DNA of 64,000 bases from Piscinibacter sp. (lineage in GTDB: Bacteria; Pseudomonadota; Gammaproteobacteria; Burkholderiales; Burkholderiaceae_C): the NCBI GenBank assembly GCA_019635485.1, contig JAHBZL010000003.1:1-64000 (forward strand). The letters run 5' to 3'. The position numbers and the translations under genes were made by a program. How positions within the stretch are numbered: position 1 is the first letter of the stretch; every line of letters starts with the position of its first letter. The notes under the pieces were generated by a model. The model did no database searches, had not been told where the DNA came from, and saw only the letters and a program-made list of their open reading frames with translations. Positions 18,938 to 25,057 of this stretch are shown here, in pieces.

Positions 18938-19696
18938 ATGCTGGCCAAACGCATCATCCCCTGCCTCGACGTCACCGGGGGCCGGGTCGTCAAGGGCGTC
19001 AATTTCGTCGAACTGCGCGACGCCGGCGACCCGGTCGAGATCGCCGCGCGCTACAACGAGCAGGGCGCCGACGAACTGACCTTTCTCGACATCACCGCCA
19101 CCAGCGACGACCGCGACCTGATCCTGCACATCGTCGAGGCGGTCGCCTCGCAGGTGTTCATCCCGCTGACGGTTGGCGGCGGCGTGCGCACGGTGGCCGA
19201 CGTCCGCCGCCTGCTGAACGCGGGCGCGGACAAGGTCAGCTTCAATTCCGCGGCGGTGGCCAACCCGCAGGTGATCCGCGACGCGTCGGCCAAGTACGGT
19301 GCGCAGTGCATCGTCGTCGCGATCGACGCCAAGCGTGCAGCGCACGCGGGCTGGGAGGTCTACACCCACGGCGGCCGGCGCAATACCGGCATCGATGCGG
19401 TGGCGTGGGCGAGGCAGATGGCCGAACACGGCGCCGGCGAGATCCTGCTGACCAGCATGGACCGCGACGGCACGCGGATCGGCTTCGACCTCGAGCTGAC
19501 GCGGGCGGTCAGCGACGCCGTCGTCGTTCCCGTGATCGCCTCCGGCGGCGTCGGCGCGCTCGAGCACCTGTCGGAGGGCATCCGGATCGGCGGCGCCGAT
19601 GCCGTGCTGGCGGCGAGCATCTTCCACTACGGCGAATTCACGGTCGGCCAGGCCAAGGCCCTGCTCGCGCGCGACGGCGTCCCGGTCCGCACATGA
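18938..19696 (+). CDS. hisF: imidazole glycerol phosphate synthase, cyclase subunit HisF
   Basis: Combines PRFAR with ammonia from HisH to give imidazole glycerol phosphate and AICAR. A 252-residue TIM barrel with [19 protein letters not shown] (catalytic Asp11), [20 protein letters not shown], the phosphate site [20 protein letters not shown], and the second catalytic aspartate in [19 protein letters not shown], followed by [13 protein letters not shown]. It is the last his gene here; hisI and hisE, often next in Burkholderiales, are missing and must be elsewhere. Its stop overlaps the 66-nt mini-cistron that leads into rsmD. Confidence 0.97.
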
Positions 19697-19758
19697 GCGC
19701 GCCGGGCCGCTCCCCTGCGCGAATCCCGGAGTGCGCGGCACGCAGGGTCGTCCGGTGA
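19693..19758 (+). repeat. 66-nt MSAPGR mini-cistron between hisF and rsmD
   Basis: A 21-codon frame ([20 protein letters not shown], then R and stop). Its ATG lies on the hisF TGA (ATGA) and its TGA on the rsmD GTG (GTGA). The same 66-nt element occurs between lolB and ispE on the other strand with identical junction geometry and 54 of 66 bases matching by hand count. Several differences are at third positions, but others change residues. It may be a dispersed repeat used as a translational-coupling linker. Confidence 0.65.
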
Positions 19759-20372
19759 GCCCGCCCGGCCGCCTGCCGCACGAGGTGCGGATCATCGGCG
19801 GGCAGTGGAAGCGATCGAAGCTGCCGGTGCCCGACCGGCCGGGCCTGCGACCCACGCCCGATCGCGTGCGCGAGACGCTGTTCAACTGGCTCGGGCAGGA
19901 CCTCACAGGATGGCGCTGCCTGGACGCCTTTGCCGGCAGCGGGGCGCTCGGTTTCGAGGCCGGCTCGCGCGGCGCGGCCGAGGTGCTGCTGCTCGAGCGC
20001 GAGCGCGACCTGGCGCGCCGGCTGGAACAGTCGTGCGAGCGCCTGCACGCGGCCACGGTGCGCGTCGAGTGCGCCGACGCGCTGGCCTGGATGCGGCGGT
20101 GCGCCCCGGGCCGCTTCGAGCTCGTCTTCCTCGACCCGCCCTTCGACGCCGGCCTGTTCGAACCCGCGCTGGCCGCCGCCGCGCCGCTGCTGGTGCCCGA
20201 CGGATTGATCTACCTCGAGGCCGACCGGGCCTTCGACGCCGCGGTGCTGGCGCCGCTCGGGCTGGCGCTGCAGCGGCACCTGCGCGCCACTTCGGTGCAT
20301 GCCCACCTGCTGCGCCGGGATACAGGCGGATACACTGCGGCCGCGATCCACTCCGAGGGGAGCCCGCGTTGA
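19755..20372 (+). CDS. rsmD: 16S rRNA (guanine966-N2)-methyltransferase RsmD
   Basis: Methylates G966 of 16S rRNA in the assembled 30S subunit using S-adenosylmethionine. The 205 residues include the family start [20 protein letters not shown], then [15 protein letters not shown], the SAM-binding [19 protein letters not shown] and the catalytic [13 protein letters not shown] (D/N-P-P-F motif). The GTG at 19755 is selected because it overlaps the stop of the repeat mini-cistron and gives the family N-terminus. The stop overlaps the TTG start of coaD (TTGA), the usual rsmD-coaD pairing. Confidence 0.95.
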
Positions 20373-20872
20373 CCTCCGCGCACCGCCTGACCGCCGTCTA
20401 TCCCGGCACCTTCGACCCGATGACGCTCGGCCACGAGGACCTGATGCGCCGCGCCAGCGGGCTGTTCGAGCGCCTGATCCTCGCGGTGGCGGCGGGGCAC
20501 CACAAACGCACGATGTTCACGATCGCCGAGCGGCTGGACATCGCGGCCGAACTCGCGGCCAAGTACCCGAACGTCGAGGTGATGGCCTTTCGCGGCCTGC
20601 TGCGCGACTTCGTCGTGCACCACGGCGGCAAGGTGGTCGTGCGCGGCCTGCGCGCGGTCAGCGACTTCGAGTACGAGTTCCAGATGGCCGGCATGAACCG
20701 CCAGCTGATGCCCGAGGTCGAGACGCTGTTCCTGACGCCGAGCGATCAGTACCAGTTCGTCTCCGGCACCTTCGTGCGCGAGATTGCCACCTTGGGCGGT
20801 GATGTCTCCAAGTTCGTGTCACCCTTGGTGCTCGACCGCCTGCGCGACCGCGTGAAGTCGAGCGATTCCTGA
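20369..20872 (+). CDS. coaD: phosphopantetheine adenylyltransferase CoaD
   Basis: Transfers AMP from ATP to 4'-phosphopantetheine, the penultimate step of coenzyme A synthesis. 167 residues with [20 protein letters not shown], including the nucleotidyltransferase T-x-GH motif, then [20 protein letters not shown] and the C-terminal [24 protein letters not shown] start at 20369 is inferred: it overlaps the rsmD stop, AGGGGAG lies 8 bases upstream, and no ATG or GTG gives a plausible N-terminus. The ferredoxin gene follows after 7 bases. Confidence 0.95.
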
Positions 20873-20879
20873 ACTGGCC

Positions 20880-21146
20880 ATGGCGCTGCTGATCACCGAC
20901 GAATGCATCAACTGCGATGTCTGCGAGCCCGAGTGCCCGAACCAGGCGATCTCGATGGGCCCGGAGATCTACCAGATCGACCCGCAGCGCTGCACCGAAT
21001 GCGTCGGGCATTTCCCGGAACCTCAGTGCGTCCAGGTCTGCCCGGTCAGCTGCATCCCGGTGAATCCCGACTTCATCGAGTCGAAGGACACGCTCTGGGC
21101 CAAGTACCAGCGGCTGCAGGAGCAGCCCGCGGCGGCGCCGAAGTAG
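20880..21146 (+). CDS. 2[4Fe-4S] ferredoxin, Alvin/YfhL type
   Basis: An 88-residue soluble electron carrier with two tetranuclear clusters. The first binding set is [12 protein letters not shown]. The second, [20 protein letters not shown] followed by C, has the 8-residue insertion between its second and third cysteines and the extra downstream cysteine that define the Allochromatium vinosum type, including YfhL. The low-potential clusters suggest a specialised reductase role, but the partner is unknown. It is likely co-transcribed with coaD. The DUF4124 gene converges from the other strand with a 1-base gap. Confidence 0.93.
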
Positions 21147-23932: not shown

Positions 23933-23985
23933 GATCGCTCCGTCGAGGCTTGCCGGGCGCGTTGTTGCACCGGTGTCAGAAGCTT

Positions 23986-24062
23986 TGGCAGGGGAGGAAG
24001 GACTCGAACCCTCGCATGTCGGAATCAAAATCCGATGCCTTAACCAACTTGGCGACTCCCCT
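23986..24062 (-). tRNA. tRNA-Gln(TTG)
   Basis: Minus-strand cloverleaf of 77 nt including encoded CCA. The acceptor AGGGGAG pairs with CTCCCCT, the discriminator is G, the D region is TCGCCAAGTTGGTTAAGGCA, the anticodon stem TCGGA/TCCGA encloses the loop TTTTGAT with anticodon TTG (reads CAA glutamine codons), and the T-arm contains GGTTCGAGTCC. It lies between ispE and prs, the normal Burkholderiales location. Confidence 0.97.
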
Positions 24063-24098
24063 ACACAGGTCCGACGCTCGCGCGCGAACCGAAACCGT

Positions 24099-24995
24099 TC
24101 AGTCTGTCGCCCATCCGGCCAGCGGATGCCGCTCGAGACTGCGGCACATGCGCCCCACCCACCCCGCCGGAAGATCCGACGGCATCGCCGCGATGGGCTC
24201 GGCACCGGTGCCTGCCCTCGCAAACACCGCGCTGCCGGAGCCTGTCATGCGGGCGTTGCCTAAACAACGCTGCAAGCGGGCGACGGCGTCGGCGACATCG
24301 GTGCACAACGCTTCGGCGGGGGGCTGCAGATCGTTGTGGCCGAATCCTTCGCCCTCGCTGCCGAGCATGCGCCGACTGCTGCCGGCCATGTCTGCGAGAA
24401 AGCCCGAAAGTATAACAGCTTCGCTGTCGCGCCGAAGCAGCGGGCTGCCGAAGATCGCACGGGTCTCGATCGCCGCGGGCGGCTTCAGCACCGCGAACCA
24501 GGCGCGTGGCAGCGCGAGCGGGGTCAGCCGCTCGCCGATGCCCTCGACGAAGGCGTTCTCGCCGCCCACGAAGAAGGGCACGTCCGCGCCGAGTTGCAGC
24601 GCCAGCGACAGCAGCCGCTCGCGCGGCCAGTGCAGGCCCCAGAGCCGGTTCAACGCCAGCAGCGTCGAGGCGGCGTCCGAGCTGCCGCCGCCCATGCCGG
24701 CGCCCCAGGGCACCTGCTTGGCGATCGAGATGTCCGCGCCGAAGCCGGTGCCGCTGGCCTGCTGCAGGCTGCGCGCCGCGCGCAGGCAGAGGTCGTCGTC
24801 GGGCAAAGCGGCGCCGAGATCGTGGCGGGCCAGCCGGCCGTCGTCACGGCGCTCGAAGTGCAGGGTGTCGCACCAGTCGATCAGCACGAAGACGGATTGC
24901 AGCAGGTGGTAGCCGTCGGCCCGCTGTCCGACCACGTGCAGGAAGAGATTCAGCTTGGCCGGTGCCGGCACCTCGTACAGGGCGCGCAGGCTCAC
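24099..24995 (-). CDS. ispE: 4-diphosphocytidyl-2-C-methyl-D-erythritol kinase IspE
   Basis: GHMP-family kinase phosphorylating CDP-ME in the MEP isoprenoid pathway. 298 residues. N-terminal [20 protein letters not shown] leads to [13 protein letters not shown], and the ATP-binding glycine-rich loop is [20 protein letters not shown]. The third GHMP motif is near the C-terminus ([15 protein letters not shown]). The GTG at 24995 overlaps the stop of the 66-nt mini-cistron (GTGA), and both GTG and the GGAGGG ahead of it fall in a 7-bp-arm hairpin (24993-25011), suggesting translation depends on coupling from lolB. Confidence 0.96.
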
Positions 24996-25057
24996 GGAGC
25001 TACCCTCCGTGCTGCCCACTCCGGGATGTGCGCCTGGGGGCGGCCCGGCGCGCTCAT
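24992..25057 (-). repeat. 66-nt MSAPGR mini-cistron between lolB and ispE
   Basis: Second copy of the element found at 19693-19758: MSAPGRPQAHIPEWAARRVA, then P and stop. Its ATG overlaps the lolB TGA (ATGA) and its TGA overlaps the ispE GTG (GTGA), exactly as in the hisF-rsmD copy. CACGGAG and CTCCGTG (24993-24999 and 25005-25011) form a perfect hairpin that hides the ispE ribosome-binding site and start. Confidence 0.65.

Follow-up and report, generated by a model that had tools for sequence, protein, structure and literature searches.

A 64,000-nt stretch of Piscinibacter sp. DNA (contig JAHBZL010000003.1, positions 1 to 64,000; hereafter the window) carries two copies of a 66-nt repeat, one at the hisF-rsmD junction and one at the lolB-ispE junction. 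Judging from sequence comparisons, we consider it probable (roughly 85%) that both copies belong to a dispersed repeat of Burkholderiales that preserves translational coupling between the genes it separates. This element resembles the mycobacterial interspersed repetitive units (MIRUs), reportedly described by Supply et al. in 1997 (Mol Microbiol 26:991). As the first-pass annotation of this DNA had claimed, the two copies lie on opposite strands, each starts on the stop codon of the preceding gene and ends on the start codon of the following one, and 54/66 bases are identical between them. Each copy translates to a 21-residue peptide, and a repeat scan of the window paired the two as a 79-nt inverted repeat with 81% complementarity. 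The unit has the layout NTGA-58 nt-NTGA: the upstream gene stops at the left TGA, the downstream gene begins at the right RTG, and a 21-codon frame joins the two (Table 1).

We then looked for further copies in the same genome (5.0 Mb in 81 contigs, 84% complete). A 301-base query around copy 1 matched 14 further places at E <= 1e-6, all of them inside the element part. DNA searches yielded 16 units, and a covariance model yielded 18 units at 17 sites, one of which (C70) is an in-frame tandem pair with a 63-nt period and a single long frame. At 17/17 sites the unit is in sense orientation, its left NTGA closing the upstream frame and its right NTGA opening the downstream one; 15 sites were scored by script, and C11:89025 and C72:4027 were scored by reading. 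The upstream frame was open across the 100 codons examined at the 15 scripted sites, and the downstream frame was open for at least 91 codons. A 1-nt insertion in the C7 unit makes it read in frame into the next gene. The flanking pairs include hisF-rsmD, lolB-ispE, tsaB-rimI, map-glnD, urtB-urtC and moaE-crcB; a pair of the RNase HII-TrmH/RlmB type and an ATP synthase gamma-like protein are also represented, with some families below curated Pfam cut-offs. No common function is apparent among these genes. The first-pass annotation had foreseen that, if the idea of a coupled repeat were wrong, most copies would be frameshifted, lie in non-coding gaps or be randomly oriented, and this is not the pattern of the 17 sense-oriented, junctional sites.

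The geometry was next assessed in 220 arrays, after exclusion of 3 false matches and 17 arrays at locus ends. These comprised 166 single, 44 double, 7 triple and 3 quadruple arrays. Both an upstream stop and a downstream start fell at the element in 156/220 arrays (15/15 in the genome itself, 87/115 in relatives and 54/90 among pattern-scan loci). Ordinary gene ends, called with a similar heuristic in 80 pattern-scan loci and the window, formed 4-nt overlaps in 77/677 cases (ATGA 49, GTGA 19, TTGA 9). Such overlaps are thus common, and the genome is GC rich, so that a chance likeness of GC-rich gene junctions could be imagined. This explanation can practically be dismissed, since the copies match numerous unrelated places with identities of up to 93% across some 70 nt and E values down to 6.5e-23, and since the unit forms tandem arrays. 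The left end of the 220 arrays was ATGA in 183, GTGA in 19, CTGA in 10, TTGA in 4 and none of these in 4, and the right end was GTGA in 138, ATGA in 65, TTGA in 5 and none in 12. GC followed NTGA at 126/208 element right ends and at 15/77 ordinary overlaps, while C preceded NTGA at 191/223 element left ends (a count that still includes the dropped matches L244, L287 and L312) and at 41/77 ordinary overlaps. Because these flanking-base and end-codon counts differ from those of ordinary overlaps, the preferred target resembles CNTGAGC, and the right end, which is GTG in most arrays, would seem to be brought along by the element.

Orthologous junctions that lack the element were informative as to its origin. 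A frame-compatible GTGA overlap without the element was found at hisF-rsmD in 7/7 congeners. At tsaB-rimI, 6/7 congeners had a plain overlap (TTGA in 2, ATGA in 4), and the seventh was unreadable; at rnhB-trmH, ATGA was found in the two congeners with the highest RNase HII identity. The lolB-ispE locus was read in 30 of the 115 family genomes with an ispE match, and inspection of the 100 nt before ispE revealed a unit in the genome under study and in G118 and none in the other 28. Moreover, one junction, with 20 identical bases ahead of it, holds a type A unit in G001 (L051) and a type B unit in G002 (L058), the two types being length classes described below. Taken together, with a plain 4-nt overlap at the element-free hisF-rsmD and tsaB-rimI junctions and at rnhB-trmH in the two nearest congeners, the comparison indicates that the unit was gained at existing coupled junctions, with the overlap rebuilt on both sides. 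The C5 locus was also used as a query for more empty sites, and was set aside because its long matches looked like paralogous clusters (one of them also in C11 of the same genome).

We then examined the reading frame of the unit. Single units had spans of 62 nt (128 units, type A), 60 nt (12 units, type B), 61, 59 and 63 nt (3 each) and, in one or two units each, 48, 55, 65, 68, 69, 72 and 74 nt; 8 lacked one or both ends. Among 158 single units, the span left a remainder of 2 on division by three in 135, of 0 in 19 and of 1 in 4. Correspondingly, the frame stops at the right NTGA in 135, reads through the right start in frame in 19 and is in the third phase in 4. None of the 128 type A single units contained a premature stop, compared to 16.1 +- 3.7 expected (minimum of 4 in 2000 runs) when the observed substitutions were relocated at random. 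The proposal of a dispersed repeat dependent on translational coupling is thus supported by copy number, junction geometry, element-free sites and frame retention alike.

An open frame in all 128 of these units, together with the common MSAPGR start, might also be expected of a family of functional micropeptides encoded between operon genes, which the first-pass annotation had offered as an alternative. This alternative did not hold up. Type B reads MSPPGRPKGEYRSAQHEGTP-(V/M)S... from the same DNA as type A in another frame, and the 65-nt class reads MSxAPGRP..ARTAVRST.VL.*, again from the same DNA. The 62-, 60- and 65-nt versions yield unrelated peptides, or extend the next protein at its N terminus. 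The nonsynonymous share of single-change codons was 0.638, near the neutral expectation of 0.679, and a Pfam search with the two window peptides matched no family. With the length classes reading one DNA in different frames and the changes near neutral, the peptide is not conserved even though the frame is kept, and no purifying selection on amino acid sequence was found in these units. We thus regard a micropeptide family as very improbable.

Most units also carry a small helix followed by a Shine-Dalgarno (SD) sequence. The stem just before the SD occurs as GCGC/GCGC, GCAC/GTGC, GTGC/GCAC and GCCC/GGGC, and it was fully paired in 108/125 distinct units, compared to a mean of 71.8 and a maximum of 82 with shuffled arms. 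In the 43-unit alignment A2, the 23 cells in which both sides had changed all fell in this stem, versus 8.1 in shuffles. RNAalifold found a structure without covariation in the first 16 copies and, with 43 copies, three of the four helix pairs. The SD itself is GGAGGG in 79/125 distinct units and GCAGGG or GAAGGG in 24 more. These compensatory changes and SD sequences, as well as the overrepresentation of coupled junctions among the sites, would fit a cis-acting RNA in which hairpin and SD tune or boost downstream translation, as in a natural bicistronic-design leader, and for which the copies are kept by selection. We consider this unlikely, though less so than the other alternatives. Presence of the unit differs between congeners at the same junctions, unlike what is expected of a needed regulator, and the target genes have no obvious common function. 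Folding of four single sequences was no better than that of shuffles (z of -0.2 to -0.9), and an Rfam search of window positions 17000 to 26000 (E <= 0.1) returned a tRNA as the sole match and no known structured RNA at the repeat. Either RNA or single-stranded DNA could be where the helix acts, in the latter case perhaps serving mobility, or the helix could stem from quasi-palindrome correction.

A different hairpin had been noted around the SD and start codon of ispE and described as perfect. This 7-bp hairpin is real, but it is no general feature of the element: a 7-bp stem at that position occurs in 1/128 type A single units, and the longest stem there is 2 or 3 bp in 110/128. The idea that translating ribosomes open the hairpin thus applies to the ispE copy only.

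On these grounds, we propose the following mechanism for the coupling-preserving repeat. A unit of about 62 nt would insert at an NTGA stop/start overlap in an operon and restore the same 4-nt overlap on both of its sides. Ribosomes ending the upstream gene would re-initiate at the ATG of the element and read some 21 codons up to the TGA of the right RTGA. There they would terminate and begin again on the downstream gene, aided by the GGAGG-type SD that the element provides. The insertion would add a mini-cistron and leave the gene pair coupled. Selection against lost downstream expression would then hold the frame open, the peptide itself being irrelevant.

Several points weigh against this proposal. 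Of the 220 arrays, 27 have a gene stop at their left end but no in-frame gene after them, 30 have a gene start at their right end but no overlapping gene before them, and 7 have neither, so that coupling is the rule and no absolute requirement. The gene calls behind these counts came from a GC-position heuristic. The insertion point is not fixed to the base, since the hisF-rsmD congeners have GTGA and the left end in the Piscinibacter copy is ATGA. The remaining five congeners show no 4-nt overlap at rnhB-trmH. Mobility was deduced from presence and absence of the unit, and loss in relatives is a less likely alternative at each site. Two of the five covariation measures (both-side-change pairs and pair types) were no better than shuffles (249/500 each). 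Finally, the premature-stop and helix nulls, as well as the frame and peptide tests, treat related copies as independent.

We also searched for a mobilizer. A short hairpin-bearing unit with a fixed short target and direct end repeats recalls repetitive extragenic palindromic (REP) elements moved by a REP-associated tyrosine transposase (RAYT) or an IS200-IS605 Y1 transposase, which would insert the unit 3' of a short target. The family search, aimed at Y1/RAYT, gave no support for such a mobilizer and identified no other. The Y1 transposase family PF01797 had no match in the 84% complete genome itself, was present in 1/7 congeners and was missing from the other 6, including G001, a single-contig genome with 4 copies of the element. 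Moreover, REP elements are extragenic, whereas the present unit lies at gene junctions and carries an open frame. A REP-like element moved in this way is thus very doubtful. The element ends are direct NTGA(GC) repeats, and terminal inverted repeats, which together with a target-site duplication would mark a miniature inverted-repeat transposable element (MITE), were not seen by eye in the unit alignments, no dedicated test for them having been made. Because of these ends, we suggest that the shared TGAGC may let the coupling-preserving repeat move by recombination or template switching.

Copies were also present on plasmids. A type A copy had no match at 1e-5 among phages and plasmids, and two exact patterns had 0 matches among viral contigs. 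A type B query matched four plasmid records, from Variovorax and Diaphorobacter, and the Variovorax copy used as a query matched 3 plasmid records. Annotated plasmid records show the element geometry at phnJ-phnK (Variovorax) and at two other junctions, which lie between an ABC transporter gene and an acyltransferase gene and between a gene of nonribosomal peptide synthetase type and a phosphopantetheinyl transferase gene. In the plasmid of Variovorax sp. SRS16 (L412, from position 1502), phnK is annotated from the ATG of the element, such that the N terminus of PhnK is an in-frame repeat unit. At the other two junctions, the PLSDB table, itself incomplete, lists no gene for the mini-frame. 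A plasmid protein search with the tandem type B peptide returned two weak unrelated matches.

The distribution of the element was then investigated. DNA searches detected it in 11/40 relatives, the genome itself included, and in 6/7 congeners (G007 being without it). Covariance model R1 (43 units, alignment A2, mostly type A) found carriers in 73/150 genomes of the family sample (own genome included), in 11/250 of the order sample (three inside the family and eight in other families) and in 2/321 of the class sample, both inside the family. No carrier outside Burkholderiales was thus found among the 321 genomes of the class sample. These copy counts and absences are bounds, at most 34 (family), 20 (order) and 16 (class) candidates per genome having been scored under strict filters. 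A degenerate pattern scan of named genomes, which demands a 5' TGAGC and suits type A only, gave at least 118 stretches. Among the listed matches, all titles that name a group were of Burkholderiales, with the exception of a metagenome-assembled genome titled Enhydrobacter (L244). The nhmmer matches of L244, L287 and L312 were judged to be a different conserved sequence and were dropped. The genera listed were Rubrivivax, Ideonella, Piscinibacter, Inhella, Rhizobacter, Aquabacterium, Methylibium, Pelomonas and Pseudacidovorax, and many titles give only Pseudomonadota or Proteobacteria. No Mycobacterium title was among the listed matches, no search of mycobacterial genomes having been made. One genome from another family of the order holds a tandem array of four units of 60 to 64 nt (G387:C25:32929-33172). 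Weaker model matches of 66 to 70 nt, mostly 69 nt (span of 65), were seen in G136 and G043 (L167, L406, L408 and L410); this span is the length class of the Diaphorobacter and Variovorax paradoxus plasmid copies.

The relatedness of copies was assessed with 81 single type A units and 22 genome labels entered by hand. The nearest neighbor lay in the same genome for a fraction of 0.271, versus a shuffled mean of 0.055 (maximum of 0.187 in 500 shuffles), whereas mean distances within and between genomes were equal (10.43 versus 10.34 of 61). Since nearest neighbors are enriched and mean distances are equal, the comparison points to some recent amplification within genomes, with no genome-specific type.

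MIRUs are somewhat longer than the Burkholderiales unit, about 50 to 100 bp, with a target written DTGA; the present unit measures 62 nt, occurs also as an in-frame version of 60 nt and as one of 65 nt, and has a hairpin ahead of its SD in which changes compensate each other. The hosts also differ, MIRUs being found in mycobacteria and the carriers found here belonging to Burkholderiales, another phylum. According to a review (PMC12548453), a MIRU is a short dispersed repeat whose open reading frame (ORF) is coupled at -4 nt to the following gene, which the geometry of our unit matches, and inserts at start codons or NTGA coupling sites, as the element-free sites indicate here. The review describes a MIRU insertion as likely having little effect on expression of the gene concerned. 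The comparison concerns the mode of working: the unit works like a MIRU, which is not to say that it is one. Termination-reinitiation coupling at ATGA overlaps was strict in 13/14 tested gene pairs according to Huber et al. 2019 (PMC6728339); this is the same kind of junction as the target of the element, but there it is a property of gene pairs and not of a repeat. Bicistronic-design leaders of synthetic biology likewise use a short translated leader ORF to feed ribosomes to the next gene, but they are man-made and not dispersed. Rickettsia palindromic elements (PMC10969869) are likewise dispersed repeats, and they maintain an open frame at their insertion sites; they have about 150 bp, and nearly half lie in frame inside genes. 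The Burkholderiales element instead contributes a cistron of its own where a stop and a start overlap, and in-frame fusion is limited to its 60-nt version. In the integron site attI1, ORF-11 (PMC8876359) is likewise a small ORF aiding the next gene by coupling, but at one fixed site. Our search of the literature, within a limited library, returned no paper on the Burkholderiales repeat itself.

Table 1. Positions of the two repeat copies, their parts and the flanking genes in the window
Feature	Position	Strand	Family
Copy 1 of the repeat (type A, span 62 + RTGA), a mini-cistron of 21 codons linking hisF to rsmD	19693..19758	+	
Copy 2 of the repeat (type A), a mini-cistron of 21 codons linking lolB to ispE	24992..25057	-	
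Left ATGA of copy 1, hisF stop and mini-cistron start	19693..19696	+	
Right GTGA of copy 1, mini-cistron stop and rsmD start	19755..19758	+	
Left ATGA of copy 2, lolB stop and mini-cistron start	25054..25057	-	
Right GTGA of copy 2, mini-cistron stop and ispE start	24992..24995	-	
Hairpin ahead of the SD in copy 1 (GTGC/GCAC stem); this helix shows compensatory changes among copies	19731..19741	+	
Pre-SD hairpin position of copy 2; 1/4 pairs broken	25009..25019	-	
SD-like GCAGGG in copy 1, for rsmD	19742..19747	+	
SD-like GGAGGG in copy 2, for ispE	25003..25008	-	
7-bp hairpin around ispE SD and start, copy 2 only	24993..25011	-	
hisF, upstream of copy 1	18938..19696	+	Pfam His_biosynth
rsmD, downstream of copy 1	19755..20372	+	PF03602
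lolB, upstream of copy 2	25054..25593	-	PF03550
ispE, downstream of copy 2	24099..24995	-	Pfam GHMP kinase

Other repeats were seen in the window. A third 21-codon frame lies at 17341-17411 (+), between hisB-like and hisH-like genes (named from their context), with an ATG at 17346, 62 nt ahead of an ATG at 17408 that its stop overlaps. It belongs to a different GC-rich repeat (CCCC..GCTCAC.GCGTTCGC.GCCCCC..), relatives of which occur in L030, L199, L275, L280, L284 and L313, several of them shortly ahead of an ATG. A second copy of this repeat precedes hisF at 18851-18937 (+); the upstream frame stops at an ATGA at 18851-18854 and is followed by a 27-codon frame, the TAG of which lies 3 nt before the hisF ATG. 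With these two copies and copy 1, three junctions of the his region bear repeats of two families. An inverted repeat pair of 205 nt with 83% complementarity lies at 36142-36346 and 60562-60766, 24 kb apart, and many diverged direct repeats of 40 to 290 nt at 45379-54804 may perhaps form one long repetitive gene.

The element offers a large natural experiment on termination-reinitiation, since the same junctions occur with and without the mini-cistron, the number of units per array varies from 1 to 4, and both re-initiating and fusing versions exist. It also affects annotation, as seen from the in-frame copy annotated as the N terminus of PhnK and from the two plasmid records without a mini-cistron gene. 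More broadly, and tentatively, at slightly less than even odds, coupled-junction mobile repeats ("cistron linkers") may be a general, repeatedly evolved bacterial class, of which the Burkholderiales family would have arisen independently of MIRUs, with several frame versions that all keep coupling and that may set downstream output through hairpin and SD. If the family is indeed independent of MIRUs, coupled junctions would be a recurrent niche for mobile DNA.

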